In this document: positions 25,538 through 41,761 of the stretch, piece after piece | Layout of the letters: every line of letters begins with the position of its first letter | Position numbering within the stretch: position 1 is the first letter of the stretch | Origin: Candidatus Schekmanbacteria bacterium | GTDB taxonomy: Bacteria; CSSED10-310; JACPHN01 | Assembly (NCBI GenBank): GCA_016188575.1 | Contig: JACPHN010000014.1 | Span: forward strand, 10,325-53,347 | Length of the DNA: 43,023 nucleotides | Direction of reading: 5' to 3' | Notes under the pieces: model-generated | What the model saw: the letters and a program-made list of their open reading frames with translations, nothing else | Databases searched by the model: none | Told to the model about the DNA's origin: nothing | Program-made: the position numbers and the translations under genes

Positions 25538-25960
25538 ATGGCCTACCTTTTTGATACGGATGCAATCTCCGAGCTTTGGAGGCCGCGACCGTCGCCGCCC
25601 TACTTGGAGTGGGTGGCGACTGTTCACCGCGAGGAGCAGTTTATCAGTGCCGTGTCTGTTGGCGAGCTTTACAAGGGAGCGTTCAAGTCGCCAGCCAAGG
25701 ATAAGTATCTATCAATCATCGAAGCTCACACGCTTCCGTTGTTTACAGTTCTGCCATACGATACAAAAGTCGCCAGGGTCTATGGCGAGATTCGGGCGAT
25801 GATGGAGATAGAAGGCAAAGTTGTCGCTGATCCAGACCTGCAAATAGGAGCGACAGCGCTTTGCTTCGGCCTGGCTCTCGTGACGGGCAATATCAAGCAC
25901 TTCCAGAAGATCCCTGGCCTGATGTTGGAGCCGATTTCGCGCACCGGTCCAACCCGCTGA
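25538..25960 (+). CDS. vapC: VapC-like PIN-domain toxin
   Basis: A 140-residue PIN ribonuclease, toxin of the pair. Catalytic acidic positions are visible: Asp6 in LFDTDAISEL, Glu43 in VGELYKG, and Asp98/Asp100 in VADPDLQIGATAL; TGNIKHF closes the active site. The length is normal. Its last 68 bases overlap the end of the convergent parA gene, so the two convergent transcripts share sequence and there is no room for a terminator between them. The toxin-antitoxin pair looks inserted at the very end of the gas vesicle operon. Confidence 0.9.
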   Translation: MAYLFDTDAISELWRPRPSPPYLEWVATVHREEQFISAVSVGELYKGAFKSPAKDKYLSIIEAHTLPLFTVLPYDTKVARVYGEIRAMMEIEGKVVADPDLQIGATALCFGLALVTGNIKHFQKIPGLMLEPISRTGPTR

Positions 25961-26738
25961 CACGCGCCCGAGCCTCGCTCGCCAAGGCGGCGTAAGCGGC
26001 ACCCGCCGGGGTTGGACGCGCCGCGGCGGCGAGGATTTCTCCGGCCTGGCTCGCCTTCGCAAGGCTCGTGGAACGGGGGATGACCGTGTCAAAAACCCGC
26101 TCGCCGTACCGCTCCCGCAGCGACAGGAGTGATTGCCTGCTCATGTCGGTGCGCGCGTCGTATTGGGTGGGAAGCAGCCCCAAGAGCTGTAGCGGCTTGT
26201 TGAGGCGCTTGCGGACCTGCTCGGCGAACTTCAGCGTCCGCTCGATTTCCGCCATCGCCAGGAACTCGGTCTGCACGGGCACCAGATACCACTGACTGGC
26301 GACCAGGGCGTTCACCGCGAAGATTCCCAGGTCGGGAGGGACGTCGACAATCACCCAGTCGTACGGCAGCCCGTTACCCCGGCTTGCCGCGCGCTCCTCT
26401 TCGATGACGTCGCGGAGAATCGACTCGCGGGCGAGCTGTCGCTCCAGCCCCTCGCGCCTGTCCATGAGCGACGGATCCCCCGGAAGCAGGGCGAAGCGCT
26501 CCCGGTTCGGTAGCGAAACCACCCCTTGCGCGAGCCCTGCCCCCGGTTGCTCGAGTAGCTCGCCAAGCGCCAGACGCGGCGCCGCTGTCGATCCCAGGGC
26601 CTTGCTGGCGCTGCACTGGGGATCGGCGTCGACGAGCAGCACCGCCTGCTCACCGGCGAGCGCTCCCGCGAGCTGCACGGCGGTAGTCGTCTTACCCACG
26701 CCTCCTTTGCTCGACAGTATCGTCACGATGTGCGTCAC
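25893..26738 (-). CDS. ParA-family ATPase, last gene of the gas vesicle operon
   Basis: A 281-residue cargo-positioning ATPase. The deviant Walker A SSKGGVGKTTT (9-19) has the signature Lys11, LLVDADPQCSASKAL follows, and VIVDVPPDLG is the Walker B region. ParA proteins dimerise on ATP, bind nucleoid DNA and move plasmids, chromosomes or protein assemblies. It starts 4 bases after the stop of the MinD-like gene. The final ~20 residues (SGLDRCAKSAPTSG on) have a different, low-complexity character and are encoded antisense to the end of vapC, so the original C-terminus was probably replaced when the toxin pair arrived. No ParB gene or parS-like repeat is seen. Confidence 0.88.
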   Translation of the reverse strand: MTHIVTILSSKGGVGKTTTAVQLAGALAGEQAVLLVDADPQCSASKALGSTAAPRLALGELLEQPGAGLAQGVVSLPNRERFALLPGDPSLMDRREGLERQLARESILRDVIEEERAASRGNGLPYDWVIVDVPPDLGIFAVNALVASQWYLVPVQTEFLAMAEIERTLKFAEQVRKRLNKPLQLLGLLPTQYDARTDMSRQSLLSLRERYGERVFDTVIPRSTSLAKASQAGEILAAAARPTPAGAAYAALASEARARVSGLDRCAKSAPTSGQGSSGSA

Positions 26739-26742
26739 CTGG

Positions 26743-27564
26743 TCACTTCCTCCTTTTCACGCCGCCGCCGGCCGTCTCGAGCATGGAAGCCGCATAACTG
26801 CGCCGGCCGTTCCCCACGGACTCCTGGAAGATCGAGCGCAGCAACTGCTCGCTGGCCGTCGCCAGCGCCTTCGCCGCCGGGATCTCTCCGGCGAGGTCGT
26901 ACAGCAGCGTCGCCTCGCGAATCGCCACGGTGACGTTGGGATCGCGGGGCACCGAGCCCGCCCAGCGCGGCTTCATGAACAGAAACCGGTCGCAGACCTG
27001 GGTGAACTGGGCGAACACCCCCGCGGCAGAGGCCGGGCTGTCGGCCATGTTGACCAGCACCCACGGCAGGGTTGCCGGCGCCCGCCCCTGATGCACCTTG
27101 ATAAAGGCGTAGCAGTCGGCGATGGCCGTGCGGTCGGTCGTGGTAACTGCGAGGACGTGATCCGCCGGCGCCGCCAGCTCCAGCACTGCGGGACCGATGC
27201 CGGCGCCCAGATCGAGCACCAGGAGGTCGAACAGGTGCTCCATCCGCCCGATCTCGGATAGCAGCAACCCCAGCTTGTCGTTGTCGACCGTCGCCAGCTC
27301 GAGCACTCCCGATGGGGCCGGCAACACCCGCAGGCCGCTCGGCAGCGTCGCCATGACCTGCCAGAGCCGCTTGTCGCCGCTCAGCACGTCGCTGATGTCA
27401 CCGCGCGCCGGCAGCTTCAACAGGATCCGGACGTTGCCGAGCCCGAGGTCGGCGTCCAACAGGCAGGTGCGAATCTTCTTGCGCGCCGCGTGCTCCGCCA
27501 AGTGCACGGCGACGAGCGTCTTGCCGACGCCTCCCTTTCCTCCAGCCACTGCTATCGACAGCAT
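26743..27564 (-). CDS. MinD/FlhG-like ATPase in the gas vesicle operon
   Basis: A 273-residue ParA/MinD superfamily member closest in feel to FlhG/YlxH: GGKGGVGKT (8-16), then CLLDADLGLGNVRILL and LLVLDLGAGIG. FlhG-type proteins set flagellar number and place; MinD places division. It lacks an obvious C-terminal amphipathic membrane helix of the MinD kind and ends in a basic GGGVKRRK. The start ATG lies in a tight run, 21 bases after the preceding gene. It is the second of three distinct ATPases of this superfamily in one operon. I infer a role in distributing or limiting gas vesicle clusters. Confidence 0.85.
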   Translation of the reverse strand: MLSIAVAGGKGGVGKTLVAVHLAEHAARKKIRTCLLDADLGLGNVRILLKLPARGDISDVLSGDKRLWQVMATLPSGLRVLPAPSGVLELATVDNDKLGLLLSEIGRMEHLFDLLVLDLGAGIGPAVLELAAPADHVLAVTTTDRTAIADCYAFIKVHQGRAPATLPWVLVNMADSPASAAGVFAQFTQVCDRFLFMKPRWAGSVPRDPNVTVAIREATLLYDLAGEIPAAKALATASEQLLRSIFQESVGNGRRSYAASMLETAGGGVKRRK

Positions 27565-27585
27565 CCTCGCGTCCCGGTTGGTGGT

Positions 27586-28659
27586 CTAGCCCCAGAGGGC
27601 CTCGTCCTCCGCCGCGCTCACGGCGGGGCTGGAACGAGTCTCTGCTACGGGTGGCGGGGTGCGGGCCACCATCGGCGGCTCTGCTTGCGGGGGCATCTCG
27701 ATCCGGCGTGACGCGCGGCCGAGCATTCTGTCGACGAGTGGTTGCAAGCGTGCCAGGTCCTCCGCGATGTGCGGTGGCAGATCCACGGCGCGCCTCCGCT
27801 CCCCATCTCCCCCGAGCTCGCCCGGCAGTGCAGGGTCCTCGGCCAGGAGCGTCGCGTTCTCCTCGTGCTCCTGTGGTTGCCACGGCGGGCACCGGAGCAC
27901 GACCTCCTCCGCGAGCTGCCGATACGCCGCCGCGCCGGCACCCCGGGGGTCGTGCGCCAGCACCGTGCTGCGAAAGGAAGGCGCCTCGGCGACGCGCGTG
28001 TTGATCGTCACCTTCGCGTCGAATACCCAGGGGCCGAACAGGCTCGTGACTTCCCGCGCCGTTTGACTCGACAGGTTGGTGCGCCGGTCGAACATCGTCA
28101 GGAGCACGCCCGTAAGCACGACGGGGTGGCGAAGGCGCTGGGTCATGTTGAGCATCAGCTTGGCCAACTGATCAACACCCTCCCACGAATAGTACTGCGC
28201 CTGGATCGGCAAGAGCCACTCGTCGGCGAGCGACAGCCCATTCATCGTCAGCAGCCCGAGGGACGGCGGTGTATCGATGAGCACGAAGTCGTACGATGTC
28301 GCCGCCAGGCCGGGCAGCGTGTTGTCTCTGAGCACCGTCTCCCGGGCGATCATCTGCTCGAGGAGCTGCTCGCTCCGCGTCAGGTTGATGTGCCCGGGTA
28401 CGAGATCGACGCCCTTGGTGCGCGTGGGCAGAATCACGTCCCGGACGTCGAGCGGATCGTCCTTCAGAAGTGCGGTCACCGAGTATGGCGTCGAGCGCTT
28501 GTCGACGCCGAGCGTCACCGTGGTGCCGGCCTGCGGATCGAGGTCGAATACCAGAACCTCGTGGCCGCGCTCGGCCAGGGCGGCGGCCAGGTTCACCACC
28601 GTCGTGGTCTTGCCGACGCCCCCCTTCTGGGCGCAAACGACCAGGATACGTCTTTTCAT
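27586..28659 (-). CDS. ParA-family ATPase with proline-rich tail
   Basis: A 357-residue ParA. Walker A is AQKGGVGKTTT (10-20), followed by VLVFDLDPQAGTTVTLGV and VLIDTPPSLGLLTMN, close to chromosome- and plasmid-type ParA. After the ATPase core (about 265 residues) comes an extension with PPHIAEDLARLQPLVDRML and a Pro/Ala-rich tail, which could bind a partner. I choose the ATG at 28659, with GGAG 9 bases upstream inside the end of the histidine-kinase-like gene; only 4 bases separate the genes. A longer reading would add an Arg-rich leader without family match. Confidence 0.9.
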   Translation of the reverse strand: MKRRILVVCAQKGGVGKTTTVVNLAAALAERGHEVLVFDLDPQAGTTVTLGVDKRSTPYSVTALLKDDPLDVRDVILPTRTKGVDLVPGHINLTRSEQLLEQMIARETVLRDNTLPGLAATSYDFVLIDTPPSLGLLTMNGLSLADEWLLPIQAQYYSWEGVDQLAKLMLNMTQRLRHPVVLTGVLLTMFDRRTNLSSQTAREVTSLFGPWVFDAKVTINTRVAEAPSFRSTVLAHDPRGAGAAAYRQLAEEVVLRCPPWQPQEHEENATLLAEDPALPGELGGDGERRRAVDLPPHIAEDLARLQPLVDRMLGRASRRIEMPPQAEPPMVARTPPPVAETRSSPAVSAAEDEALWG

Positions 28660-28663
28660 CGAT

Positions 28664-29365
28664 TCACTCCGATATCTCCGCCGCGGGCAGTCGCATTGTC
28701 GCCAGGCCACCGCCGCCGTTTCCGTTACCAAGAATCAGGCAGCCACCCAGTGTCGTTGCCACCATTTCCGCGAGGAACAGCCCGAGCCCTGGGTGGGGAT
28801 CTCCCTTGCTCGAAACAAACGCCAGAGCCGCTTTCCCGGCGCGCTGCGGGGAAAAGCCGGGACCGCTGTCGGCAACGCGAAGCGACACCCACGCGCCCGC
28901 CTCCGGGGCGACCGCGACGTGAACGGTTCCCCCCTGGCCCGCGGCGTCACCCGCGTTGAGGAGGAGCGCCGACACCGCCTCCTCGAGCGGGCCGAGCGGG
29001 CCGTGCACACAGGGCGTCTCCGGATGCGCCTCGATCGTCAGCGTAATGCCTCGGCGGCGCCACTCGCGATCCAGAGCCCGGATGAGGTCGCCCACGAGCC
29101 AGGCGAGCGAAACCGGCTCGCGCGGCTCAAGCAGGCGCCGGCCCATTTCGTCAGCGCGCACCGCGGCGTTGATCGTGCGGATCAGGTCCGCCAGACGCGC
29201 GGTGGCCTGGGCCGCGGGTGCCTCCGCACCGCTTGCGGTGAGCTCGCCCAGATCCTCGCGCAAGTCCTCCACGAGCGCGGACAGGCGGTGCGCCAGCGCT
29301 CCCATACCCCTGGCCTGGCCCCGCAAAAAAGCCGCCCGCTCCTGTTCCTCGACCTGCGCCAACAT
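28664..29365 (-). CDS. Stand-alone histidine-kinase-type ATPase
   Basis: A 233-residue protein with the GHKL ATP-binding fold of sensor kinases. The N box is EAVSALLLNAGDAA (Asn137), G1 is DSGPGFS (166-172) and G2 is SSKGDPHPGLGLFLAEMV. The first 100 residues are helical. A histidine at 26 (GALAHRLSALVEDL) sits where a phospho-acceptor might be, but the H-box is not canonical. There is no membrane segment, sensor domain or receiver. Its ATG overlaps the stop of gvpJ as TAATG, so the genes are translationally coupled. It may phosphorylate a remote regulator or act as a plain ATPase; either is inference. Confidence 0.82.
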   Translation of the reverse strand: MLAQVEEQERAAFLRGQARGMGALAHRLSALVEDLREDLGELTASGAEAPAAQATARLADLIRTINAAVRADEMGRRLLEPREPVSLAWLVGDLIRALDREWRRRGITLTIEAHPETPCVHGPLGPLEEAVSALLLNAGDAAGQGGTVHVAVAPEAGAWVSLRVADSGPGFSPQRAGKAALAFVSSKGDPHPGLGLFLAEMVATTLGGCLILGNGNGGGGLATMRLPAAEISE

Positions 29366-29739
29366 TATCTATACCGCTCTTCGAGAGCCCCAAGTCGGCT
29401 TTTCAACGTGTCCAGCTCCGCAGCAACGGGGCTCCGCGGCGCCTCCGCTACCTGCCCCTCGAGAAGCGCCAACCTCGCCGCGATCGACTCGAGCTCCTCG
29501 TGCGGCGGCAATGAATGCGCCCGCGACGAAAGCTCGGGGTTATGGGTCCACCAATCTAGGCCCATCTCCTTGGCCTTGTCAACCGACGCGATCATCAACC
29601 GCAGTTGGATGGTCAGCAGCTCGATATCGACGAGCTTGATCTTGATGTCTCCGGCGATGATGATGCCCTTGTCCAGCACCCGCTCCAGCACGTCGGCCAG
29701 CGTGACCGAGTGCGTCGATTTCATGATTTCCCTTGCCAT
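29365..29739 (-). CDS. gvpJ: Gas vesicle protein GvpJ (A family)
   Basis: A 124-residue minor gas vesicle structural protein. Residues 6-62 are the GvpA-family fold: SVTLADVLERVLDKGIIIAG, DIKIKLVDIELLTIQLRLM, then DKAKEMGLDWW, a form typical of GvpJ/GvpM. Unlike the major shell protein it has a C-terminal extension of about 60 residues, mostly predicted coiled coil (ELESIAARLALLEGQ). In known clusters such proteins help nucleate the conical tips. The start could also be the ATG five codons in. It lies 26 bases after gvpK. Confidence 0.9.
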   Translation of the reverse strand: MAREIMKSTHSVTLADVLERVLDKGIIIAGDIKIKLVDIELLTIQLRLMIASVDKAKEMGLDWWTHNPELSSRAHSLPPHEELESIAARLALLEGQVAEAPRSPVAAELDTLKSRLGALEERYR

Positions 29740-29765
29740 GTCGGCTGCTCTCCTGCTGCTGCTGT

Positions 29766-30074
29766 CTATCGATCGAAAAGCTTCCCGAGCGGACCCAGGT
29801 CGAGATTGAGGTCGTCGTCCGTCAGCCCGAAGTGCTCCTTGAGACGATCCATCTCATCGCGCAGCCCCGCGAACGTTTGTCCCATCCGTTCGATCTGCTC
29901 GTCAGTCACGGTTCCCGCCTCCACGCGCCGCACTGCCTGCCGCTCGAGGAGCTCGCGAATGAGCTCAACGAGCGTGAGCACCAGTTGCCCGAGCCCCTTG
30001 CGGACGTTGTCGGGGTCCAGCGCCAGGCGCGAGACCGGTCCCTCGTCGCGCTGCTCCTCAGGTGCCGCTGCCAT
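29766..30074 (-). CDS. gvpK: Gas vesicle protein GvpK
   Basis: A 102-residue accessory protein needed for vesicle formation in characterised systems. It matches GvpK throughout: LALDPDNVRKGLGQLVLTLV, ELIRELLERQAVRRVEAG, then IERMGQTFAGLRDEMDRL and the ending LNLDLGPLGKLFD. The ATG at 30074 begins just before the conserved part and overlaps the upstream gene by 17 bases; a longer reading adds an Arg/Ser leader foreign to the family. Cytoplasmic, no membrane segment. Confidence 0.95.
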   Translation of the reverse strand: MAAAPEEQRDEGPVSRLALDPDNVRKGLGQLVLTLVELIRELLERQAVRRVEAGTVTDEQIERMGQTFAGLRDEMDRLKEHFGLTDDDLNLDLGPLGKLFDR

Positions 30075-30312
30075 CTCGCTCGCGTTTCTTGGCCGGTGGC
30101 GCCGCCCCGAGCTTGCCGCGCGCGGTGTCCCACGAGCAGGCCACGAGCTGCAGGCCGATATACAGGAGCTCAACGTCAGCCACCTTGATGGCAATGCTGC
30201 CGGACACCACGACTCCCGTCTCGAGCAGCCGATCGAGCGCGTCGCACAGGGACGCTCCCTCGGGTGCGACGACCGGCACGGTCACCGCGATCCTCTCAAT
30301 GTCGTCATTCAT
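30058..30312 (-). CDS. Small GvpA-domain protein (GvpS-like)
   Basis: An 84-residue member of the GvpA superfamily. The core reads ASLCDALDRLLETGVVVSGS, then IAIKVADVELLYIGLQLVA, which aligns with the A domain. The N-terminal part (MNDDIERIAVTVPVVAPEG) and the basic end (PPAKKRERDGSG) differ from GvpA and GvpJ. It fits the minor A-like proteins called GvpS in some clusters; I leave the symbol blank because naming varies. The ATG shares bases with the stop of the ATPase gene (ATGA) and the end overlaps gvpK, so three genes are translationally linked. Confidence 0.85.
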   Translation of the reverse strand: MNDDIERIAVTVPVVAPEGASLCDALDRLLETGVVVSGSIAIKVADVELLYIGLQLVACSWDTARGKLGAAPPAKKRERDGSGT

Positions 30313-32345
30313 TGCGTTATCTCTCTCGCGAGAATAATTTCTCCGATCCTGGTGAGCGCATCCACGCCGACGGGAGGTTCCAGGCACTCCTCCACGCCGT
30401 GCCAGACGGCCCCGGCGGGCAGCACCGACTGATATGCCTTGCGAAAAGCCGCGGATCGCGACACCGCCGCCGCGCACAAGTCACAGCCGGGTTCCGCGGA
30501 CGCGCGATAGTGGTTGAGCACCCCTCCCCGAACCGCCAGACCCGCGGTGCGGAGGCGCGCGCACAGCCTCTCGGTCTCCGCGAACGAAAGCTGCGTGGGA
30601 ATGGCCACGGGAAGCACGACGCAGGCAGCCGGGTCGGTGAGCGTCTTTTGCAGCTCCCGGATACCACGCGACAGGCTCACGAGGAATTCCTTTACCTTGG
30701 GCACCCGGAACACCTGGCGGTACTTCAGAAAAAGCTCAAAGAATCCCCGAGACCAGTCCCGGATCAGCTCGGGGAGCTCGAGCAGGCGCAGGAAATGCCC
30801 CGTGGGCGCCGTGTCGACCACGATTCTGCGGTAGGTGTTGGCGCGTAGGTGATCGACGAGATCCGTGAGCGCCATGATTTCGTCGAGCCCCGGAGGGGAC
30901 AGGTCGATCAGATGCTCCATGGCGACGCGATCGACCGAGGCATCCAGACCGTCCGCGGAGAAGAGCGAGGTGAAGAACCCATGCACCTCATCAGCGTACA
31001 GTTTCCGGAACGTCTGGAAGCGCGCCGCGGCGTCGACCTCGACGGCGTCGAGCCCTGGGTATACTTCCGTCGGCTGCTCGCCTACCGGCAGCGCCAAGGC
31101 ATCGGAGATGGAGTGCGCCGGGTCGGTGGAAAACAGCAGCGTGCGCCCCTGCCCCGCGCGGCCGGCCGCGCCTCGGGGCAATACCAGCGCCAGCGCCGCG
31201 GCGATCGTGGTTTTGCCGACGCCGCCCTTGCCGCAGACGAGCACGAGCCGGGCCTCGTCCAGGGCGCGCGCGAGCAGCTTCGGAGGGGCATTACGCGGCC
31301 CCCCCACCTCACCTTCACCCGCTTCCGGGGGCAGGGAAGGAGGACGTTGTGGGGCACTGTCAGGCGCCTGTCCGCGGGCGTCACCGCTTAACACCGACGC
31401 CATGGCCGAGAGCTCGTGCAGCCCGCGCGGCTCCACCGCCTGTAGCGGCACGGTCAGCAATGGCAGCGGCCTGCCAACGAGCGCCGCTCGCAGCTCGACC
31501 GCCGCCTTTTCTGCCCAGACCAGGTCGCGCTGCTGGCGCTCGTGGCACCACGAACAGGCGGGCGTGCCCGGGATTACCCGGTTGAGGATAACCAGTGGAA
31601 CGAAGATGCCGATGCCCGCGAGACTGCACAGCAGACGGCGAGTTTCCCACAACGCCAGCGGGTCCGGCACCATCACGGGGAGAAACGCCACCTTGCGGTC
31701 GTCGCGAAACAGCTTCCTGATGGCGGCGAGCAGCTCCTCGAGCTCAGACAACAACGCATCGGCTTCATCGGCGACCCGGCGGCCGCGGAACATGCGGGCC
31801 ATTACGCGGTGCTTCTCCATAAGCGCGTCGAGAGCGTCCCGCCAGCGGTCCAACACATCGGGAAGCTCGAGCAGGCGAAGCGTGTGGCCAGTCGGTGCGG
31901 TGTCCACGATCAGTCGCGCGAGGTCACCACGTGCGCTGCGCTCGGCGATGGCCTGCAGCGCCGCGAGCTCATCGAGGCCGGGCATGCCGAGGTCGATGAA
32001 GCCGGCCAGATCCTCATCGTCCAAAAATGTGCCGCGCAACGCGATCTGGCGAATTCCTTCCCGATGGCGCGCGCGAAAGGCCGCGAACAGAGAGGCGCTA
32101 TCGAGCTCTTCGACGAGCAGGTTCGGTGGCAGCGCCGGTCCGGCGTGCGGCCCGGCCGCCAGCGCGTCGCTCACCGAGTGCGCGGGGTCGGTGGAGAGAA
32201 GCAGCACGCGCTTTTCCGGGTCTCGCCTCGCGAATAGCAGGGCAATGGCGGCCGCCACCGTGGTCTTGCCGACACCGCCCTTGCCGCCCACGAAAATCAG
32301 GGGCCGATCGATCTCCGGCAGCGGCAGCCGATCAATCCTGCTCAT
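30309..32345 (-). CDS. Tandem ArsA/Get3-like ATPase of the gas vesicle operon
   Basis: A 678-residue protein made of two ArsA-type ATPase halves. Each has the P loop GGKGGVGKTT or CGKGGVGKTT (about 20-29 and 371-380), a STDPAHS switch and a VDTAPTGH motif. Each also has a CxxC (PACSWCHERQ in the first, PGCDLCAA in the second), a place where Get3 binds zinc between subunits. ArsA proper uses other cysteines for arsenite, and no arsenic genes are near. I infer a chaperone or membrane-targeting ATPase for hydrophobic Gvp proteins. The linker (about 325-365) is Pro/Gly-rich and holds a dispersed DNA repeat. The ATG at 32345 lies inside the end of gvpG; an upstream TTG is less likely. Confidence 0.9.
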   Translation of the reverse strand: MSRIDRLPLPEIDRPLIFVGGKGGVGKTTVAAAIALLFARRDPEKRVLLLSTDPAHSVSDALAAGPHAGPALPPNLLVEELDSASLFAAFRARHREGIRQIALRGTFLDDEDLAGFIDLGMPGLDELAALQAIAERSARGDLARLIVDTAPTGHTLRLLELPDVLDRWRDALDALMEKHRVMARMFRGRRVADEADALLSELEELLAAIRKLFRDDRKVAFLPVMVPDPLALWETRRLLCSLAGIGIFVPLVILNRVIPGTPACSWCHERQQRDLVWAEKAAVELRAALVGRPLPLLTVPLQAVEPRGLHELSAMASVLSGDARGQAPDSAPQRPPSLPPEAGEGEVGGPRNAPPKLLARALDEARLVLVCGKGGVGKTTIAAALALVLPRGAAGRAGQGRTLLFSTDPAHSISDALALPVGEQPTEVYPGLDAVEVDAAARFQTFRKLYADEVHGFFTSLFSADGLDASVDRVAMEHLIDLSPPGLDEIMALTDLVDHLRANTYRRIVVDTAPTGHFLRLLELPELIRDWSRGFFELFLKYRQVFRVPKVKEFLVSLSRGIRELQKTLTDPAACVVLPVAIPTQLSFAETERLCARLRTAGLAVRGGVLNHYRASAEPGCDLCAAAVSRSAAFRKAYQSVLPAGAVWHGVEECLEPPVGVDALTRIGEIILAREITQ
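31301..31337 (+). repeat. Dispersed GC-rich repeat, copy B, in the ATPase linker
   Basis: Shares its first 14 bases and about 31 of 37 overall with the intergenic copy at 2076-2112. Read on the minus strand it encodes part of the linker, SLPPEAGEGEVGG, between the two ATPase halves. An intergenic-type palindrome has thus apparently been accepted in frame in a coding sequence. Confidence 0.5.
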
Positions 32346-32601
32346 CGAGCTGCTCGTCGGTCCCAATTCCGCCCGAGCCGTCGGCTTTCACCCGGTCCAG
32401 GCGGTCCAGCAGGTCGGCTTCGAGCGCGTCGAACTCGGATTCCGAGATGCGCCCCGTCTCGAGCTGCATGTAGAGCTCCTGGAGCTGCTCCACGAGCGAG
32501 TCCGCATCGTCTGCTTCGGCGCGCACGGCCTGGTGGATTTCACGAAAGACGAAGAGGAGGCCGCGGACGGGAAAGGTGAGCAGATCATCGACGAGTAGCA
32601 C
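32332..32601 (-). CDS. gvpG: Gas vesicle protein GvpG
   Basis: An 89-residue accessory protein. The conserved N-terminus LTFPVRGLLFVFREIHQAV is diagnostic for GvpG. It continues as helix (VEQLQELYMQLETGRISESE) with an acidic, probably flexible end. GvpG works with GvpF/L as an assembly factor in characterised systems. The ATG at 32601 follows the gvpF/L gene by 33 bases. Its last 14 bases overlap the start of the tandem ATPase gene. Confidence 0.93.
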   Translation of the reverse strand: MLLVDDLLTFPVRGLLFVFREIHQAVRAEADDADSLVEQLQELYMQLETGRISESEFDALEADLLDRLDRVKADGSGGIGTDEQLDEQD

Positions 32602-32634
32602 GACGCAGGCACCCCGGATGCGGAAGGGGAAAAA

Positions 32635-33408
32635 TCAGGATTTCCCGAGAGCGACGCGGACAAAATGAAACGGTGGAAACGGCCCTGAGTAGTCGAAGGC
32701 GTAGTTATCGTCGAAGAGCGCCGCCGCGGCGAAGACGGCCTGCTCGAACTCGGTCGCGCGCGCGCGCTCGACCAGGCAGGTCAGGTTCATGACTTGCTCC
32801 TCGCGTTTGACGGGTCCTTCGTGGATTTCGAGCGCGACGTTCTCGAGGATTGCCTCCACATTCGCGCGATGGCGCTCTCTCGCGTCATGCAGGAGCGATT
32901 CGAAGGTACGTCCCAGGGCAATGCGCTCGTCCCGGGACGATGGGCCCCACTTGTTCTGCAAGCGGTCCCGCAGCTCCGCGAGCTCCGGATTGCGAAACAC
33001 GAAAAATTCATAGATGTTGGGGACATCCCAGCTCACTTTCAGCGTGAGCTCGACTTTCCCGGCGAGGCGATCGAGCTCCTCGGCGATCGTCGCTTCGTTC
33101 GCGGCGAGCAGCGCCTGAAGATTCGACAGGCTGGGCGCGACAACGCCGAACGCCACGGGGAGAAAGGCCACGGACGACTGCATCAACGCTTGCAGGACCG
33201 CATGGTGTGCGGCGATATTGGCGCGCTGGGGGCGGACCTCGCGGCCGTGAAACGCGCTGGTGATGAAGGCGATCGCGCCGGCACGCACCACCCTCAGCTC
33301 GTCGCCGGCTTGCCCGTCCGCGGAGGCTACCGGCGTCAGGCCTCGCAGGTCGCACGTGGCCTCCGGCGCAGTTATCGCGTAGAGGTACCAGCCCGTCGGG
33401 TCAGCCAC
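32635..33408 (-). CDS. gvpF: Gas vesicle protein GvpF/GvpL
   Basis: A 257-residue accessory protein of the GvpL/F family. It opens with WYLYAIT, continues through IAAHHAVLQALMQSSVAFLP, VAFGVV, ELTLKVSWD, and ends with the family closing motif YSGPFPPFHFVRV. GvpF contacts GvpA in known systems and is thought to act early in assembly. The start is a GTG at 33408 (VADPTGWYLYAI) with AAAGGAG 7 bases before it; an upstream reading would add a leader with no family match. A second copy of this family survives as a fragment at 36416-36622. Confidence 0.94.
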   Translation of the reverse strand: MADPTGWYLYAITAPEATCDLRGLTPVASADGQAGDELRVVRAGAIAFITSAFHGREVRPQRANIAAHHAVLQALMQSSVAFLPVAFGVVAPSLSNLQALLAANEATIAEELDRLAGKVELTLKVSWDVPNIYEFFVFRNPELAELRDRLQNKWGPSSRDERIALGRTFESLLHDARERHRANVEAILENVALEIHEGPVKREEQVMNLTCLVERARATEFEQAVFAAAALFDDNYAFDYSGPFPPFHFVRVALGKS

Positions 33409-33451
33409 AGCAGTGCTCCTTTCTCCCGAATTGCCGTTGGCAGGCGTCGCG

Positions 33452-33802
33452 TCAGTATCGGATTCCAAAGCCCGGGGCCTCATCGCCGCCCGGCAGCGAT
33501 TCATCGCCCGCGGGCACCGCCGGCGGCGCGTCCCTGCTCAAGGCTGGCTTTTCGTCTTTCTTGCGCGCGGCTACGGCGTCGGCAACAGATGCGAGCAGCG
33601 GCTGGAGCTCCTCCTCGACCCCGGCCAGGTAGCTGTCCAGATCGACGAGACGAGCCTTGATCGCCCTGCGCTCCTGCTCACGCAAGCCTTTCTGTAGGGT
33701 CAACAAGGCCATGCGCAGGAAGACGCGATGCGGAGCCCCGGTCGCGGCTGTGGAGTCAGACATCGTGCGGATGTTTTTGAGTCCTCGTTTGGGTGCGCTC
33801 AT
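33452..33802 (-). CDS. Small helical protein of the gas vesicle operon
   Basis: I do not recognise this 116-residue protein. It has a basic N-terminus (MSAPKRGLKNIRTM), a helical core (HRVFLRMALLTLQKGLREQE, then LVDLDSYLAGVEEELQPLLA) and a Pro/Gly/Asp-rich tail. There is no signal peptide or long hydrophobic span. Its ATG shares bases with the gvpN stop (ATGA), so it is translated with GvpN. Position between gvpN and gvpF suggests an assembly or adaptor role; that is inference only. Confidence 0.8.
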   Translation of the reverse strand: MSAPKRGLKNIRTMSDSTAATGAPHRVFLRMALLTLQKGLREQERRAIKARLVDLDSYLAGVEEELQPLLASVADAVAARKKDEKPALSRDAPPAVPAGDESLPGGDEAPGFGIRY

Positions 33803-34842
33803 TCTTCTCCGGAATCCTCCTCATTATTGCGCCAGGCAGGCGCCGCGCCCGCGGGCATGTCCAGTGTGTCCAGGTCGCCTCCAGAGCCCACCGCGCTGAT
33901 TATTTCTTCGAGCTTCTTGCGCATCAGGGAGCGGCCGCCGCGGGTGACTTTGACGGTGTCGGTGCCCAGAAGCACATCGTCGAGGACGCACCGGAAAAAA
34001 GGATCGGTCGGATCGGGATCGGCACCGTGCCGTGCCAGGACCTTGCCGATGGCGATGCAAGCGCGGATGGTCGGCCGGTGGTTATGGACACCTACGCCGC
34101 GCAGCGCGCGGACGATTCTCACGATGACCTGCGCGGCGGCGCGATCGATACCACCGCGGCTCATGGTGATCTGCACTTCGGTGTCTTGGTCGAAGTGACC
34201 GAGGTTGATGGTGATCATGCGGTCCATGAGCGCGTCCTGCGCCTTGTGAACGCCGGCGTATTCCTCGGGATTGGACGTGAAGATGGCCCGGAACTGCGAG
34301 TGCACGTGCATGTACCCCTCGCCGCGGGTGCGCAAGTGGGGCATGTTCAGGATGCCCTCGGCCAGGACGCTGAGCAGGACGTTGTTCGTCTCCGGCCGAG
34401 ACCGGTTGAACTCGTCATAGACGACGGTGTACCCGCGATGGCACGCCATGGTGAGGCGATTGTCGACCCACAGCGTGCGCATCTCCTCTTCGGTCTTGAC
34501 GACCGAGTGGATGTAGTTGTCGACGAGGCTGCGGCGGCGAAACCCGCTGTTGTGGCCGATGAGGTCGGCGCTGGTGAATTGGTCGTCGCCATGGATGAGC
34601 GCCACGGGGCGGCCGAGAAGCGCCGCGGTGTGCAGCGCCAGAGTGGTTTTACCGGTACCGGCCATGCCCGCGAAGTGCACGGGGTAGCCGACCTCGAGGT
34701 ACGTCAGCGCCCGGCGGGCGATCTCGTCGACATAGGCGGTCTGCACGAAGGACTCGCTCGCCTGGGGCTTGACGGTGTCGTGCCCGGGCTGGACGCGTTG
34801 AATGGGCGCGGCCACGGTGGCCGTTGACTGCTCCTTCATCAT
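33799..34842 (-). CDS. gvpN: Gas vesicle AAA+ ATPase GvpN
   Basis: A 347-residue MoxR-type AAA+ ATPase. Walker A is GMAGTGKTT (59-67), Walker B is VVYDEFNRS (140-148), and LLSVLAEGILNMP, IFTSNPEEYAGVHK and ALMDRMITINL are characteristic of GvpN. GvpN is needed for vesicles to widen from bicones to full cylinders in known systems, probably by remodelling GvpA or GvpC. The C-terminal ~100 residues carry the helical lid and an acidic end. It sits 12 bases after the coiled-coil gene. Confidence 0.96.
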   Translation of the reverse strand: MMKEQSTATVAAPIQRVQPGHDTVKPQASESFVQTAYVDEIARRALTYLEVGYPVHFAGMAGTGKTTLALHTAALLGRPVALIHGDDQFTSADLIGHNSGFRRRSLVDNYIHSVVKTEEEMRTLWVDNRLTMACHRGYTVVYDEFNRSRPETNNVLLSVLAEGILNMPHLRTRGEGYMHVHSQFRAIFTSNPEEYAGVHKAQDALMDRMITINLGHFDQDTEVQITMSRGGIDRAAAQVIVRIVRALRGVGVHNHRPTIRACIAIGKVLARHGADPDPTDPFFRCVLDDVLLGTDTVKVTRGGRSLMRKKLEEIISAVGSGGDLDTLDMPAGAAPAWRNNEEDSGEE

Positions 34843-34854
34843 CTCTCCCCGCGG

Positions 34855-35787
34855 CTAGTCGGGCAACGACAGTCCCCGATTGGCGAGAATGCGCTGGATT
34901 TCCCGCACGGATCCCGGCCCGATTCCCGGGAGGGCGAGCAGCGCTTCCTGGGAGGTGCGCAGGAGCTCGTCGATGGTATTGATTCCTCCCTCCCGCAAGA
35001 GCACGCCCACCCGCTCCGAAAGGCCCAGCGCGCCGATGGCGGCAGCGCCAGCGGCCGGGGCCGCCTCGGCGACGGTGGCGGCTTCCTGGGGCGCGGCCGG
35101 CGCGGGAATCGGGGCGGCGGCCGGAGGAGCGGTCGCCTCCGCGGTGGCCCGCGGCACCACCGGAGGTGCGGCCGGCGCGGCTGATGCGCTCAGCCCATGA
35201 AAGACCCGAAAACCCTCTTCCACCTCGGCGCGAAAATCAGCGAGCGTGTGGCGAACATCTGCCCGGAGCGACGCCACGCGGGCAGTAAGCTGCCCGACGT
35301 GGGACAGAATCTCGTTCTTTTCCAGCCGGCATCGTTGACGGCGCGCGGTTTCGGAGTCGAGACGATTCTTGCGGCAGTTGTCGAACGCCTGAGCGAGCGT
35401 GTCGGCGCGCTCGCGCAGCGCGGTTTGACGAGAGCTCCGGTCGGCGTCGGCGCGACCGCGGCGCTGCTCCTCGTGCTGGCACAGATCATCCCGCAGCGCC
35501 GCGAACGCCTGGCGCATGGCGCGCGCGTGCGCGGCGTGCTCCAGGCTTCTCGCCTCCCGCGCCCTGGCCGCGGCGCCGCGCCGGTCGGTCTCGCCTTCCA
35601 TGCGGGATCGCCGGGCGCCCCCGACAACCGTATTGAACCGGTGCCTGAGGTCGCGAAGTTGCCCTTGCGCCTCGCTCAGCACGCGGCCGGTTTCTTGCCG
35701 GGTATGCGCCAGGTCTTCTGCTCTGTTGTCGTGGGCCTGGCGAATCCGCGCCGCCACGCTCTGCATTGAGGCCAAAAATTCCGCCAT
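34855..35787 (-). CDS. Coiled-coil protein with C-terminal helix-hairpin-helix
   Basis: A 310-residue protein in the position where gvpC often follows gvpA. Residues 1-195 are almost entirely charged helix rich in Arg, Glu and Ala (MAEFLASMQSVAARIRQAHD, later RQAFAALRDDLCQHEEQRR), with no membrane span. A Pro/Ala linker (about 200-250) leads to a helix-hairpin-helix at 258-308: INTIDELLRTSQEALLALPG, then IGPGSVREIQRIL. This resembles the RNA polymerase alpha C-terminal domain fold, which binds DNA or protein. No clear 33-residue GvpC repeat is visible. I infer an outer-surface protein or an adaptor to the ParA-type ATPases or to DNA. Confidence 0.8.
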   Translation of the reverse strand: MAEFLASMQSVAARIRQAHDNRAEDLAHTRQETGRVLSEAQGQLRDLRHRFNTVVGGARRSRMEGETDRRGAAARAREARSLEHAAHARAMRQAFAALRDDLCQHEEQRRGRADADRSSRQTALRERADTLAQAFDNCRKNRLDSETARRQRCRLEKNEILSHVGQLTARVASLRADVRHTLADFRAEVEEGFRVFHGLSASAAPAAPPVVPRATAEATAPPAAAPIPAPAAPQEAATVAEAAPAAGAAAIGALGLSERVGVLLREGGINTIDELLRTSQEALLALPGIGPGSVREIQRILANRGLSLPD

Positions 35788-35895
35788 GTCCTTAACATCC
35801 CTCCATGAGCCGATCCCCTCTTACGCCCAGGCTTGAGAGGCGCCTGCTTGCCGCGGAGCTCACTTGCTCGCCGCGCCCGTTCCGCCCCATCCGTC

Positions 35896-35913
35896 GCACG
35901 CGTAGATGCGTGC
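35896..35913 (-). terminator. Weak hairpin between gvpA and the coiled-coil gene
   Basis: GCACGC and GCGTGC form a six-pair stem with a six-base loop in the 171-base gap after gvpA. In other clusters a hairpin here partly stops transcription so that gvpA mRNA is in excess. This one is weak and has no T-run, so the role is uncertain. Confidence 0.3.
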
Positions 35914-35958
35914 AAGCGATGACAGGGCCGAACGGTGCGAGCTTGAGCTACGCCCTCA

Positions 35959-36177
35959 TCATGCCGGCGCCGCTGCGGTGGCCGTGAGGCCGATGGCTTC
36001 GGCGTACTTCAGGTAGGTATCGACCGAGGCGATCACGACGCGGGCCTCGATCGAGAGGAGCTCGATACCGACCAGCGAGACCTTCACCCAGGCGTCGATG
36101 ACGATACCTTTGTCGAGGATCCGATCCACGACCTCGGCAAGGCTCGAGGAGTCCGTGGACTTGGTAACCTGTGCCAT
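35959..36177 (-). CDS. gvpA: Major gas vesicle shell protein GvpA
   Basis: A 72-residue protein that would polymerise into the vesicle wall. It has the canonical core [40 protein letters not shown], then [14 protein letters not shown], with no extra domains. The ATG at 36177 has GGAG 7 bases upstream. It is the first complete gene of a minus-strand operon running to 25893. The 238-base region upstream holds a candidate sigma-54 promoter, and the gap behind it holds a weak hairpin. Confidence 0.97.
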
Positions 36178-36263: not shown

Positions 36264-36279
36264 TGCAAGAAAGGCACCA
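36264..36279 (-). promoter_or_regulatory. Candidate sigma-54 promoter of the gas vesicle operon
   Basis: On the minus strand, TGGTGCCTTTCTTGCA has GG and GC exactly 10 bases apart. It matches the -24/-12 consensus (TGGCAC, five bases, TTGCA) except at two positions. It lies about 87 bases upstream of the gvpA start. No activator gene or enhancer site is identified in the window. Confidence 0.45.
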
Positions 36280-36415: not shown

Positions 36416-36622
36416 TCACGACTCGGCGCCATCCGCGTGGTCGGAAAACGCCTCGGATACGAACGTGAACGGCGGCCACGGTCCGGTGACCGTGAGCGCC
36501 ACCCCGTGGGCGCTTTCCGCCGCGGCCTGGTGGGTCATGGCCGCGCTGAACGCTTCCTGTCGATCTCTGCGGACGAGGCACGCCAAGTTGAGAAAAGGCT
36601 TGCCGGGCGTTTCACCCGGTAC
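36416..36622 (-). pseudogene. C-terminal fragment of a second GvpF/L
   Basis: About 68 residues that match the end of GvpF/L: FLNLACLVRRDRQEAFSAAM, then [16 protein letters not shown]. The whole N-terminal domain is missing. The frame is open upstream into an IS5-type transposase fragment, so a chimeric product is formally possible but has no plausible start of its own. It shows the gas vesicle cluster once extended further upstream and was cut by an insertion sequence. Confidence 0.8.
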
Positions 36623-36895
36623 AGCGCGGACAGGCAACGCGACCACCTCGATTTCGATCCCGAGGTCTTCCCGGACGTTCTCAACGAACCGGCCCCTGTA
36701 CGCCCCATCGCTCCAGGTCTTTTCCAGCGTGGTGTCCTTGACTTTGGCGGCCATCCGTGTCGGCAGGCCACCGTCGCGATCCTGGATGTCGGCTTGGTAC
36801 CCGTGGATCGCAATGAGCAGGCCCAGGGTGTCTACGACGATGTGGCGCTTTCGTCCTTTGGTGGTGTCCCATACTGACTCAACATGCCGCTGCAA
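36623..36895 (-). mobile_element. IS5-family transposase fragment
   Basis: Reads TTKGRKRHIVVDTLGLLIAI, then ADIQDRDGG and WSDGAYRGRFVENV. These are the central DDE-region motifs of IS5/IS427-type transposases (KGRKRHI, VDT, QDRDG, DGAY). Both ends of the transposase are absent and no terminal repeats are visible. It is joined in frame to the gvpF/L fragment. Confidence 0.8.
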
Positions 36896-36970: not shown

Positions 36971-37837
36971 CTACTTACAGGCGTCCTGATTCGTGAGCTC
37001 TTCCGAGAGCTCTTCAATAGACGTCCGCTCCTCTGATCCGATTGTCATTGACCCGGCGATTCGTTTCAAGTCATCGGCGTCCGATTGCCTTCCTTGCGCG
37101 CTGATTGCTGGCATAATGAAGGAATGGTCCCAAAACCTTATGGACTTCGACTGCGTGATTTGTTCAAGCAAGGACATTAGCATATCCGCTGCCCCCGAAT
37201 CGCGCACATTGCAAAAGTACGAATACGCATCAGTGTCTGCAATCTTCGTTTTCGCCGCAATCGCGAGCTGCTCTTTCCAGTAAGCGAGATCCTGGGGCAC
37301 GGGTGGACGCACCTCGAGTCGGCGTGGCGGCGAAGACGCTGACCCTCTCGCGATGGTGAAGCCTTCGAGGCTTATGGGTCCAGATGAGTAGTAATCAACG
37401 CGCAACTCATAAATACCGGTCCTCGCGGGCAGGAAAAACCCCTCCTCGCACTGTTCACCAATTCTAATGGTTGCGAATGTGACAAACTCAGAGCTAACGG
37501 GCACGTAAGAACAGTCAAGGCAAGACGCTATGCCAAGTCCATATTTGTACTTGCAGCTTCCATCAGAAGCAGTTAGCGAAATCTTCGCGTCAAGCGACGG
37601 GTCAAGGTATACTACGCCTGGAATCTTTGCACGCACGCGCACTTTTATTACATATTTTGACCCCATGTTTACTTCATTGGGAGCATCGAGATCAATTTCT
37701 ATTGCTCTAAACGCTTCGTTAGTATCTCTCTCCGGGAGAACGCAATTTTCGTAATCAGCCAGAGATACATTACTGATATTAAAACAACTCCACAGTAATA
37801 GTGCGGTTGCTATAGTCTTAGGCATGATGTACGGCAT
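36971..37837 (-). CDS. Exported protein, candidate immunity to the RHS metallopeptidase tip
   Basis: I do not recognise the family. The 288-residue product has a signal peptide (MPKTIATALLLWSCFNIS, cleavage near SLA), a beta-rich N-terminal half with several Cys (CKYKYGLGIASCLDC) and a helical C-terminal half (DADDLKRIAGSM). The gene is AT-richer than the window. It begins inside the last 28 bases of the RHS gene, with AAGGAG upstream, so it is co-translated. A small gene right behind a polymorphic toxin tip is usually the immunity protein; export would fit protection in the periplasm. That function is inferred from context only. Confidence 0.65.
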   Translation of the reverse strand: MPYIMPKTIATALLLWSCFNISNVSLADYENCVLPERDTNEAFRAIEIDLDAPNEVNMGSKYVIKVRVRAKIPGVVYLDPSLDAKISLTASDGSCKYKYGLGIASCLDCSYVPVSSEFVTFATIRIGEQCEEGFFLPARTGIYELRVDYYSSGPISLEGFTIARGSASSPPRRLEVRPPVPQDLAYWKEQLAIAAKTKIADTDAYSYFCNVRDSGAADMLMSLLEQITQSKSIRFWDHSFIMPAISAQGRQSDADDLKRIAGSMTIGSEERTSIEELSEELTNQDACK

Positions 37838-40800
37838 TTCTTCGTAAACTCCTTCCAGCCAGGTGAATCGTGTTCATTGGTTCTGTCCTGTCTTGCCAAA
37901 TGACCCATTTCGTGAAGAATATTAGTGGCAATCTCACATGCCGACGGTACTTTGCTAAGAAAATCCTCGTCAATGGTTATGCGTCCCCATACGCCTGGCC
38001 TTGTACAGGCATTCGGGTTATGGCCAGCACACTGACCGGTAATAATAGTGGGCGGCGTCCCCTCGTTAAGCACGTCGTTGATGTTCTTCATAATCTGGTT
38101 AGGTTGCCCTTGAAAATAGTCTGTGCATGATTTACATGGACCGGTGTTACCAAGGAGCTCGGAAACAAGCTTAACTAGCCCTTTCCTGATTAGCTTTGGG
38201 TATCTTGCCGTAGGGTAAATCACATACGAGCCGAGCGGGTCCCGTTTCAGCAGCGGCGAGCTTTCCGCGTACTGATACCCGGCTGTGCCCATCGACGGCC
38301 TGGGGTCGGGTCCCGAAAACCTCCATGTCGACGGAAGATAGATGCGGGCGCGAAAGTCGTAAACCGGTACATCACCGCCAACCAACGCCTCCCGGCTCCC
38401 GAAGCCGAACCGATCCAGGACTGACGATCCGGCCGGGATGCCGCGCCGAAGCTGTCATACGCGTACGTTCGCACAATCGCGCCGGTGTCGGCGGTAACGG
38501 CTACCACGTCGTTGCGCTCATTTCGCGCGTATGCCAGCGTCGTCCCCCCGATCTCGCCGGAGAGCAGCTCGTCTATCCCTTCCGCATACGTGTAGCTCTC
38601 CGTAGCCCCGCCGCCATTGTCGACCCGGATGAGATTTCCTTGATCATAGAAGATCTGCTCGCGCTCCCCGGCCAGCAGGTCTTCCTTATCGGCGCGCCGG
38701 TCCGCGCCGTCGAAAGAAAACCGGAGATCGTTGAGAATTTCCCCGTCCGAGCTTCGCCGGCGGCGAATCCCCGTGTTTCGGCCGAGCGCGTCGTACGCCA
38801 GCGCGATCTCCTCGCCGTCCGTGACGTGTCGAATGAGCGACAACTGGCCGTTCGCGTCGTGCGCGTACGCGTACGCGTCGTCCGCCACCAGTCTTCCGGC
38901 CGCGTCGTATTCGTAGGTCCCGCTCAGGTGCGACGCGGTCCGCCGCCCCAGCGCGTCGTAGGCGTACCATTCGTCCACCAGCGGCCCGCCGTCCGGATGA
39001 TCCGCCCCCGTCAGCCGGCCGGCCGCGTCGTACGCATAGACGTGCTCTCCAAGGCCGTCGGTGATTCGCAGGACCTGTCCCTCGGCGTCGTAGGTATAGG
39101 TGTAGCTCAGCTCCGGCACGACCGACGGGTTGCGCGTCGTCATCGCGGTCAGCCGCCCGAGCTCGTCGTGGGCGTAGAGGCGAGTCGCCCCGCCGGCGTC
39201 CGCCGGTACAGATGCTCGGTTCCCTCGGGGCCCACCATCGTCTTGCGCCGCCCGGCCTTGTCGTACGTGTAGCGCGTCGTCAGCCCCGCCCACGTCTCCG
39301 ATGCCATCCGTCCCCCGGCGTCGTAGCTTCGCTCGATCACCCCCACGGCGTTGGCGATCGCCAGCGGCCGCCCACCCACGTCGTAGCTCCACGTCGTCTC
39401 CGACCCATCTGATGCGAGCTGCCGCGTGCGCTGGCCCGCCGCGTCATACTCGTCGCGCAGCCACTCGCCACCCGGGCGCCGTTGCTCGATCTGTCGTCCG
39501 GCGCGGTCATACACCCACGTCTCCCGGTTCCCGAGCGGATCGCTCCGCGCCACGACCCGCCCGCGCGCATCGACCTCGCTGCGCCAGACGTTGCCGAGAG
39601 CATCGACCACGGCGGTCGCCGCCGTCCCCGCGCCCTCGTAGCTTCGCGCCGTCACCGCGCCCGCCGCGTCGACCTCCCGCACCACCCGCCCAAGCGCGTC
39701 GTACCACGTATCGCGCCGCCGCCCGAGCGCGTCGATAACCGCCGTTACCTGCCCGTGGGCGTCCCGCGCGTAGCTCGTGACGTTCCCGAGCGGGTCCTCG
39801 TCCCAGGCGACGTTGCCGAGCCCGTCGTAGCCGGTCTCCCAACGCGCTCCCGCCGCGTCCGTCACCGCCGTAAGCAAGCCGCGCGCGTCGTATTCATAGA
39901 TCTCGTAGGCTCCGCCCGGCCGGTCGACGCGCGTCACATTGCCGCCCGCGTCGTAGGTGAAATCCGTGCGCGCGAGCAGCGGGTCGGTGATGCGCGTCAA
40001 GCGGTCGGCCGCGTCGTATTCGTAGCGGGTCACCGCTCCCGTCGCCAGCTCCTCGATCGCGATCGCGTTGCCGCGCGCGTCGAAAGTCGTCTCCGTGGCG
40101 CTGCCGTCCGGCCGCGTCACCGTCTCGGTCGACCCGTCCGCGGCGCGAGCGACCGTCGTCACGCGCCCCACCGCATCCTCGGTCGCGGTCACCCGCCCGC
40201 CGCCGTCGATCGTAAAGCGCGTTTCGCCGCCGAGCGCATCCGTTCGCGTCGCCACAACCGCCTCGGCGAGCAGCGCGGTTGCCGGCACCGCCCGCGTCCC
40301 TGAGCCCGCGGGCAGCTCGTCGATCAGCCCCACCGCGGCGGCTGGCACATACGTCCGCACCTCGCCATCCGGCAACACCCGTGCTCGCAGCCGGCCCCGT
40401 CCGTCGTAGGTGAACGTCGTCGCGGCGCCCGTGCCGTCGCGGCGCGACAACAGGCGGTGCACCTCGTCGTAGGCGAACAGCTCCGCGTTTCCCGCCGGGT
40501 CGACGACCGTCACGAGATCGCCGTGCGTGTCCACGACGAACCGCGTCACCCGGCCGCCTGGGTCCGTGTAGGTGCTCAGGCGACCCTCGGCGTCGTAGGC
40601 CAGAGCGCTGACCTGGCCCGCGGGATCCGTGATCTCGGTCAGCCGCCCCGCGGCGTCGTAGCGATACGCCGTGGCGTTGCCCACCGCATCGCGCCGCTCC
40701 GTCAAGCGCCCGGCCGCGTCGAAGCGCTCGCGCTCGCCGCCGGCAGCGACCCGCTCGTAGGTGCCGTCCGCCATTTGTCGCAGCCGCTCCGTGCCTCCCT

Positions 40801-41308
40801 CGCCCAGATACGCGCCCGTCCCGCGCGCCAGCCGCCACAGCGCGGAAGTCCCGCCATCGAGCATCGCCGTCACCACGGTGCCGTCGGGCAGCGCGAGCAC
40901 TCCCGTCGGCCGGCTCGGGCCGTCGATCGCGCGATAGCGGAGGTAGGGGCGCCCACCCAGGTCGAGCTCGTAGATTCGTCTGCGGTCCGCCACCGCTACC
41001 AGCAACCCGGCGTCGCTCGCGGCCAGCCCGCTGATCCCCGAGCGCACAAACCAGCGCTCGGCCGCGTCCATCCCGGGTACCAGGCGATGGATCGCACCGG
41101 CCGCGTGCACGTAGAGGCGCCCATCCGCCGCCACGGCGAGCTGGCCCGCGTCGCCGAGCGCGCGCGTCTCGACGCGCACCGGACCCGCCTCCCGCCACCC
41201 GCTTTGGCGAGTGCTCACCGACGACCGAGCTTCGTCCGGTATTCCGGACTGACACCCAGCCAGGAAGCAAGTTCTCGGCACCACCTCATGAGATCTCCAA
41301 TGCCCCAT
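37810..41308 (-). pseudogene. RHS-repeat toxin with metallopeptidase tip, two frameshifts
   Basis: A polymorphic RHS protein of about 1,166 codons. The core has many YD repeats (for example RYDAAGRLTEITDPAGQ) that would form a toxin-enclosing shell. It ends with the conserved boundary FGFGSREALVGGDVPVYDFR and SPLLKRDPLG. The ~130-residue tip carries ATNILHEMGHLAR, an HExxH zinc-peptidase motif (HEMGH, 37900-37914). The reading frame shifts near 39190-39205 and again near 38411-38428; protein similarity continues on both sides, so the breaks are single-base changes or sequencing errors. The 5' end is uncertain: LAGCQSG resembles a lipobox but no proper signal precedes it. Confidence 0.8.
38878..39176 (-). 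repeat. RHS core duplication, copy 1
   Basis: Nearly identical to 42725-43023 over 299 bases; I count three differences by eye. It encodes the last shared YD repeats, from DAYAYAHD's upstream neighbour back through SYTYTYDAEGQ. Identity stops abruptly on the tip side, where the two RHS genes diverge. Confidence 0.9.
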
Positions 41309-41419
41309 CCTTGCCGAGTCTACGCCTCCACGCGGAGCGTTTCCTCATGCATCATTCGCCACCATTGGGCGACACGCAGTACGCCTCACGTGGGCTTGCG
41401 GGCGCCGAACAGATAGTCC

Positions 41420-41761
41420 TCAGTCATAATCAGAAAACGCAGCAACTTCGGTAACTTTTCCATCTCGAAACTTTATGAATCGCACATAGTAGGACGAACC
41501 CGATGCGTCTGAGTAGTGATATACGACAGATGAATCGTCATATTCAATAGTTGATAATGGTTCACCGAGAATATCCAATACATGTTTCTGTGACATTCCG
41601 ATCTTTATAGACGTAAAGGCTCTCTCACTGTAGTTTTTACTATATAAAGTACCGAGTCCTGGATGTAGAAAGTAAACCCAAAACGCCATAAACAAAGACA
41701 CTAACAACCATATTATGATACGCAGAGTCAGCATGATCCAATGAACGTATCCCGCCTTCAT
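41420..41761 (-). CDS. Small membrane protein with BamE-like domain, candidate immunity
   Basis: A 113-residue protein with one strong N-terminal membrane helix (LRIIIWLLVSLFMAFWVYFL) followed by a domain that resembles the SmpA/BamE fold: FTSIKIGMSQKHVLDILGEP, then YYVRFIKFRDGKV. I take the ATG that overlaps the RHS stop as ATGA; an ATG six codons earlier is possible. The gene is AT-rich, like the adjacent tip. Its position directly behind the RHS tip suggests an immunity protein held in the inner membrane facing the periplasm; this is inference. Confidence 0.65.
   Translation of the reverse strand: MKAGYVHWIMLTLRIIIWLLVSLFMAFWVYFLHPGLGTLYSKNYSERAFTSIKIGMSQKHVLDILGEPLSTIEYDDSSVVYHYSDASGSSYYVRFIKFRDGKVTEVAAFSDYD

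Follow-up and report, generated by a model that had tools for sequence, protein, structure and literature searches.

Gene content of the gas vesicle operon

We analyzed a 43,023-nucleotide stretch of DNA (the window) from a Candidatus Schekmanbacteria bacterium (GenBank assembly GCA_016188575.1, contig JACPHN010000014.1, positions 10,325 to 53,347), in which a gas vesicle (gvp) operon carries a 3' tail of four genes encoding a histidine kinase and three ATPases of the ParA/MinD type. The operon is compact and runs on the minus strand from 36177 to 25893, in the order gvpA, coiled-coil protein, gvpN, small helical protein, gvpF, gvpG, ArsA, gvpJ1, gvpK, gvpJ2, kinase, ParA1, FlhG/FleN-type ATPase, and ParA2. 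An earlier note on this DNA had described one tight minus-strand operon joining gvpA, gvpN, gvpF, gvpG, gvpK, and gvpJ to three ATPases, and coordinates, strand, and profile matches bear this out. Every gene that it named is present in its place and on its strand, but it overlooked the two-domain ArsA ATPase and the soluble histidine kinase. The gene content and order of the operon are firm sequence facts.

Pfam and NCBIfam matches identify the core genes, comprising gvpA, encoding the main shell protein (35959-36177; PF00741, E 1.8e-17; ATG start at 36177 set by comparison), gvpN, encoding an AAA+ ATPase (33799-34842; TIGR02640 GvpN equivalog, 323 bits against a cut-off of 266.8), gvpF/L (32635-33504; PF06386, E 8.5e-55), gvpG (32332-32601; PF05120, E 1.4e-17), gvpK (29766-30074; PF05121, E 2e-33), and two further members of the GvpA family, gvpJ1 (30058-30312; PF00741, E 5.3e-15) and gvpJ2 (29365-29739; PF00741, E 4.7e-17). 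Between gvpG and gvpJ1 lies a two-domain ArsA/GET3-type ATPase (30309-32345; PF02374, E 5.6e-98, in two stretches) of 678 amino acids, close to the 640 or so expected of the ArsA associated with gvp genes. The presence of an ArsA-type ATPase in gvp operons of cyanobacteria and others was described in 2010 (PMC2963123).

Intergenic distances range from -53 to +33 nucleotides, and the sole wide gap, of 171 nucleotides, lies 3' of gvpA. The tail genes are spaced at -1, +4, +21, and +4 nucleotides, and their third-position G+C equals that of the core genes (0.79-0.89), which makes an assembly join or a chance neighborhood unlikely. An assembly artifact or frame error was rejected, with every reading frame open, starts and stops in register, and composition uniform.

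The tail ATPases and the histidine kinase

The tail begins with a soluble histidine-kinase core between gvpJ2 and ParA1 (28664-29365; PF02518, E 3.3e-11), which also matches the NCBIfam models CreC, ZraS, PrsK, and AtoS below their cut-offs. ParA1 (27586-28659; PF13614, E 5.1e-47) is a Soj-type ParA that matches Soj and ParA structures and carries a C-terminal extension of about 100 amino acids, while ParA2 (25893-26738; PF13614, E 9.7e-33) finds Thermus thermophilus Soj at E 3.6e-38. The two are 34% identical to each other and 43% and 36% identical, respectively, to the genome's own Soj. In an alignment with that protein, both retain the KGGVGKTTT motif, with the signature lysine of a deviant Walker A, the DPQ and Walker B motifs, and the arginine of the D-x-R-T loop, presumably the residue needed for nucleoid DNA binding in Soj/ParA.

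The third ATPase (26743-27564) also has intact deviant Walker motifs. The earlier note had counted two ParA proteins and one MinD/FlhG-like protein; three distinct ATPases, two of them Soj-like, are indeed present, but the third is not a MinD. Its best solved structure is FleN (E 8.6e-39, against 2.7e-12 for MinD), and in our tree it falls among FlhG/FleN proteins, separated from MinD by a 100/100 split, so that a true MinD identity was ruled out. No C-terminal amphipathic helix was seen on inspection, and there is no MinC in the operon. Judging from these sequence comparisons, the protein is a diverged FlhG/FleN paralogue. It shares the sequence family and ATPase motifs of FlhG/FleN but differs in its very long branch, its place in a gvp rather than a flagellar operon, the absence of an evident C-terminal membrane helix on inspection, and the absence of the DQAxxLR motif, the FlhF-stimulating enhancer helix, which is present in the genome's own FlhG. 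Pseudomonas aeruginosa FleN likewise lacks DQAxxLR.

About eight ParA/MinD-type proteins are encoded in the 9.2 Mb genome, so three such genes in a row beside gvp genes are far beyond chance. The genome has ParAB on contig C5, MinCD (MinD and a MinC-like gene) on C43, and FlhG on C164; the tail ATPases are therefore spare copies, and the idea that they are the genome's only FlhG, ParA, or MinD was rejected. As the earlier note had stated, no ParB-like open reading frame was recognized in the operon or nearby (no search was made for parS), and the chromosomal ParAB is on a separate contig. Capture of plasmid partition genes together with their ParB seems unlikely, since a ParB is not found in the vicinity and identity to the nearest plasmid ParAs does not exceed about 45%.

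The tail ParAs thus resemble the chromosomal Soj/ParA of ParABS systems in sequence, Walker motifs, and DNA-binding arginine, but differ in having no recognized ParB, in their gvp context, and in the 100-amino-acid extension of ParA1. Carboxysome positioning by McdAB offers another parallel, with a ParA-type ATPase encoded alongside the organelle it may serve. In contrast to that system, no McdB-like partner was found, the neighbors of the ParAs are a kinase and a FleN paralogue, and the match between ParA2 and McdA is weak (9e-12).

Comparison with other gas vesicle clusters

The core of the operon is ordinary and of a widespread gvp type. Syntenic operons occur in Poribacteria, at locus L029, which shares its contig with L085; in Acidobacteria, where L031 lacks ArsA; and in a further phylum, at L082. 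The GvpN proteins of the poribacterial and acidobacterial loci are about 60-63% identical to that of the window. L029 and L082, like the ArsA-bearing operons described previously (PMC2963123), share with the window the core genes in nearly the same order, a two-domain ArsA at the same place, a GvpV-like protein, and a coil between gvpA and gvpN, but they are without the kinase-ParA-FleN-ParA tail, and their upstream regulatory genes are intact where those of the window are lost.

We examined 28 other gvp clusters, comprising those of 17 gvp-positive genomes (16 families, from a 386-genome sample across the bacterial tree), 2 from Acidobacteria, 4 from Pseudomonadota (found among 398 genomes), and 5 from plasmids. 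None of the 28 carries a ParA/MinD-type gene near gvp, the only matches being weak ones to ArsA genes; in most cases the DNA read extended only some 10 kb from gvpN, some contigs ended within the cluster, and coverage of the large phyla that carry gvp genes was sparse. The co-occurrence of these ATPases with gvp genes that the earlier note had suggested looking for was accordingly not seen, and a conserved gas vesicle system is rejected for this sample: with 0/28, the tail is not part of a general one. Octadecabacter plasmids, which matched both GvpN and the FlhG-like query, were considered as a shared arrangement and set aside, as their gvp region is without ParA/MinD. Our literature search found no description of ParA/MinD-type genes in a gvp operon. 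The arrangement is a lineage-specific tail on a known operon type, seen once.

The earlier note would have been undermined by the same ATPases beside plasmid or flagellar genes in relatives without gvp, and this was not observed: genomes of the same phylum that lack gvp yielded no close copy of the FlhG-like gene. The closest relatives elsewhere are 36-38% identical and mostly flagellar FlhGs, and flhF, fliA, or flhA is present in 27 of the 29 loci with the best FlhG-like matches. Separately, FlhG-like ATPases in loci L116 (genome G178) and L122 (G316) form a clade of their own, with no flagellar gene within the roughly 3.7 kb examined.

The coiled-coil and small helical proteins

The earlier note had also proposed a coiled-coil protein and a small helical protein as adaptors for the ATPases. 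The former (34855-35787) lies between gvpA and gvpN, as do coils in most of the gvp clusters examined, and this position and coiled-coil nature, common to the clusters, are those of GvpC. It ends in an RNA-polymerase alpha C-terminal domain (alpha-CTD)/helix-hairpin-helix (HhH) domain (PF03118, 33.2 bits against a cut-off of 23.8). The AlphaFold2 model of its last 70 residues is an RNA-polymerase alpha-CTD (pLDDT 85), and the best Foldseek match is the E. coli alpha-CTD (TM 0.86, 33% identity). Relative to that domain, the coil protein keeps R265, which we take to be the main DNA-contact residue, but not N268 or K298.

The small helical protein (33452-33802) is GvpV-like. It aligns at 25-30% identity with proteins encoded at the same position in six other gvp clusters, proteobacterial plasmids among them, and its position corresponds to what we take to be the place of GvpV in the Serratia gene order. 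The function of GvpV has been treated elsewhere (PMC4982088). Both proteins have same-position counterparts in clusters without ParA, so they are part of the gvp core and not specific to the ATPases.

Coils at the GvpC position repeatedly end in modules of DNA-binding type, namely the alpha-CTD fold in the window (34855-35787) and HhH in L082 (8575-9399) and L071 (10540-12486). Three others (L070 8616-9551, L076 7946-8977, and L081 6057-6863) share a winged-helix-like tail ending in LYF(P/I)x. It is possible that the DNA-binding-type ends serve as tethers between vesicle and nucleoid.

Promoter and edges of the operon

Upstream of gvpA, on the minus strand, lies a sigma-54-type -24/-12 promoter box, TGGTGCCTTTCTTGC (36265-36279). 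The window and L029, L030, L031, L082, L096, L097, L098, and L080 all have such a box about 90-140 nucleotides ahead of their first gvpA (89-137 nucleotides in most related clusters), where the background frequency is about 0.02 per 60 nucleotides; the box is exact in L082. In L029, L031, and L082, gvpA is preceded by a sigma-54 activator, GvpL/F, a PAS kinase, and a response regulator. In the window, one minus-strand open reading frame (36416-36895; PF06386 and PF01609) instead joins part of a transposase, in frame, to what is left of the C-terminal end of a GvpL/F gene, and this marks the loss of the upstream gvp regulatory genes kept by the relatives. We looked for a second copy of this regulatory set elsewhere in the genome and rejected it, finding only general sigma-54 activators, with no GvpL/F beside the three best.

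At the other edge, a PIN-domain (VapC-type) toxin gene (25538-25960, plus strand), with an antitoxin-like open reading frame just upstream, is convergent with ParA2 and overlaps its 3' end; its G+C of 0.55 is below that of its surroundings. RHS/YD-repeat genes, apparently repeated, lie upstream of the gvp operon at 37810-43023.

Possible roles of the tail

ParA/MinD ATPases position many cargos (PMC10241942), and the gas vesicles of Chloroflexales sit near septa (PMC7332563). Operon membership and family knowledge argue, with modest force, for the tail ATPases acting on vesicles. We tentatively favor, as a possible account, a lineage-specific tail in which the ParAs handle the placing or sharing of vesicles, with the FleN paralogue as a brake on vesicle number or expression. 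A widespread gvp operon type would have gained a 3' tail of histidine kinase, ParA1, FleN paralogue, and ParA2. The two Soj-type ParAs would bind the nucleoid as ATP dimers, spacing or sharing out vesicles, or vesicle nuclei, between daughter cells, and a vesicle-bound protein would release them. A likely linker would be the alpha-CTD-bearing GvpC-like coil or the C-terminal extension of ParA1 itself. The FleN paralogue, together with the kinase, may keep vesicle number down by restraining the sigma-54 activator that acts on the gvp promoter, in the way that FleN restrains FleQ in flagellar control. The fuller version, a dedicated machine for vesicle positioning, inheritance, and number control, with two nucleoid-bound ParAs, a FleN-type counter, and the alpha-CTD of the GvpC-like coat protein as a handle for DNA or ParA, appears somewhat unlikely. 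In favor of a role in vesicle placement and number, we count the packing of the tail with gvp genes, its matched codon composition, the intact ATPase motifs, the spare status of the tail copies, the FleN affinity, the sigma-54 box, the sigma-54 activator upstream of gvpA in syntenic operons, and the alpha-CTD fold of the coil.

Several points weigh on the other side. Conservation lends no support, because the tail is absent from all other clusters examined; each candidate linker also has a counterpart in clusters that lack ParA; and no ParB-, McdB-, or ParP-like partner was recognized in the operon. The very long branch of the FleN-like protein means that its function may have changed. The sigma-54 activator that it would act on is not beside the operon, and a sigma-54-activator query has at least 74 matches in the genome. 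The sigma-54 box of the window departs from the consensus at two positions. The genome is an incomplete assembly of 275 contigs. The dedicated positioning or inheritance system of the earlier note is therefore only partly upheld: the ATPase genes are intact and lie in the same direction as the gvp genes with tight spacing, but such genes are near gvp in none of the 28 other clusters examined, and a FleN paralogue fits regulation no less well than positioning.

FlhG/FleN proteins count flagella and inhibit a sigma-54 activator, so regulation explains the tail paralogue at least as well as positioning does. In Pseudomonas, the activator inhibited by FleN is FleQ (PMC10723142, PMC12826062). With a FleN paralogue and a kinase sitting in a sigma-54-type operon, a regulatory role is a serious rival. 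The whole tail could be regulatory, the kinase, FleN paralogue, and ParAs tuning the sigma-54-driven gvp promoter and coupling vesicle production to the flagella or to the cell cycle, with nothing being moved. The FlhG/FleN homology, the sigma-54 box, and the resemblance of the kinase core to ZraS and AtoS fit such a role; moreover, since the upstream regulatory genes of the relatives are missing here, with a transposon remnant in their place, a substitute regulator may be needed. Soj-type ParA pairs with a DNA-binding loop are, however, not known as gvp regulators, and no activator gene is linked in the genome, and we consider a purely regulatory tail unlikely.

The tail might also be a passenger, a set of unrelated partition or regulatory genes that a rearrangement placed behind the gvp operon and that have no action on vesicles. 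Its absence from every other cluster examined would be explained, and the operon does abut a VapBC-type pair of different base composition, and a transposase remnant interrupts its upstream edge. Against such an origin, the four tail genes are tightly packed and matched in codon use, every ATPase motif is intact, and there is no plasmid replication or ParB gene nearby; we regard it as unlikely. Powering vesicle assembly, for instance in loading or capping shells as they grow, as has been proposed for the ArsA-type ATPase, is an improbable role for the extra ATPases: the two-domain ArsA in this and other gvp operons belongs to the same P-loop class, but no assembly-chaperone role is known for the Soj or FlhG families, and other gvp clusters manage without the tail ATPases.

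The placement of gas vesicles and their sharing at division have been little studied, though vesicles lie near the septum in some bacteria (PMC7332563). Should the tail prove to act on vesicles, a gas-filled organelle would join the cargos of ParA-type positioning, counting of the FleN type would no longer be confined to flagella, and the genes would offer a ready-made kit for setting the number and place of vesicles in engineered cells.

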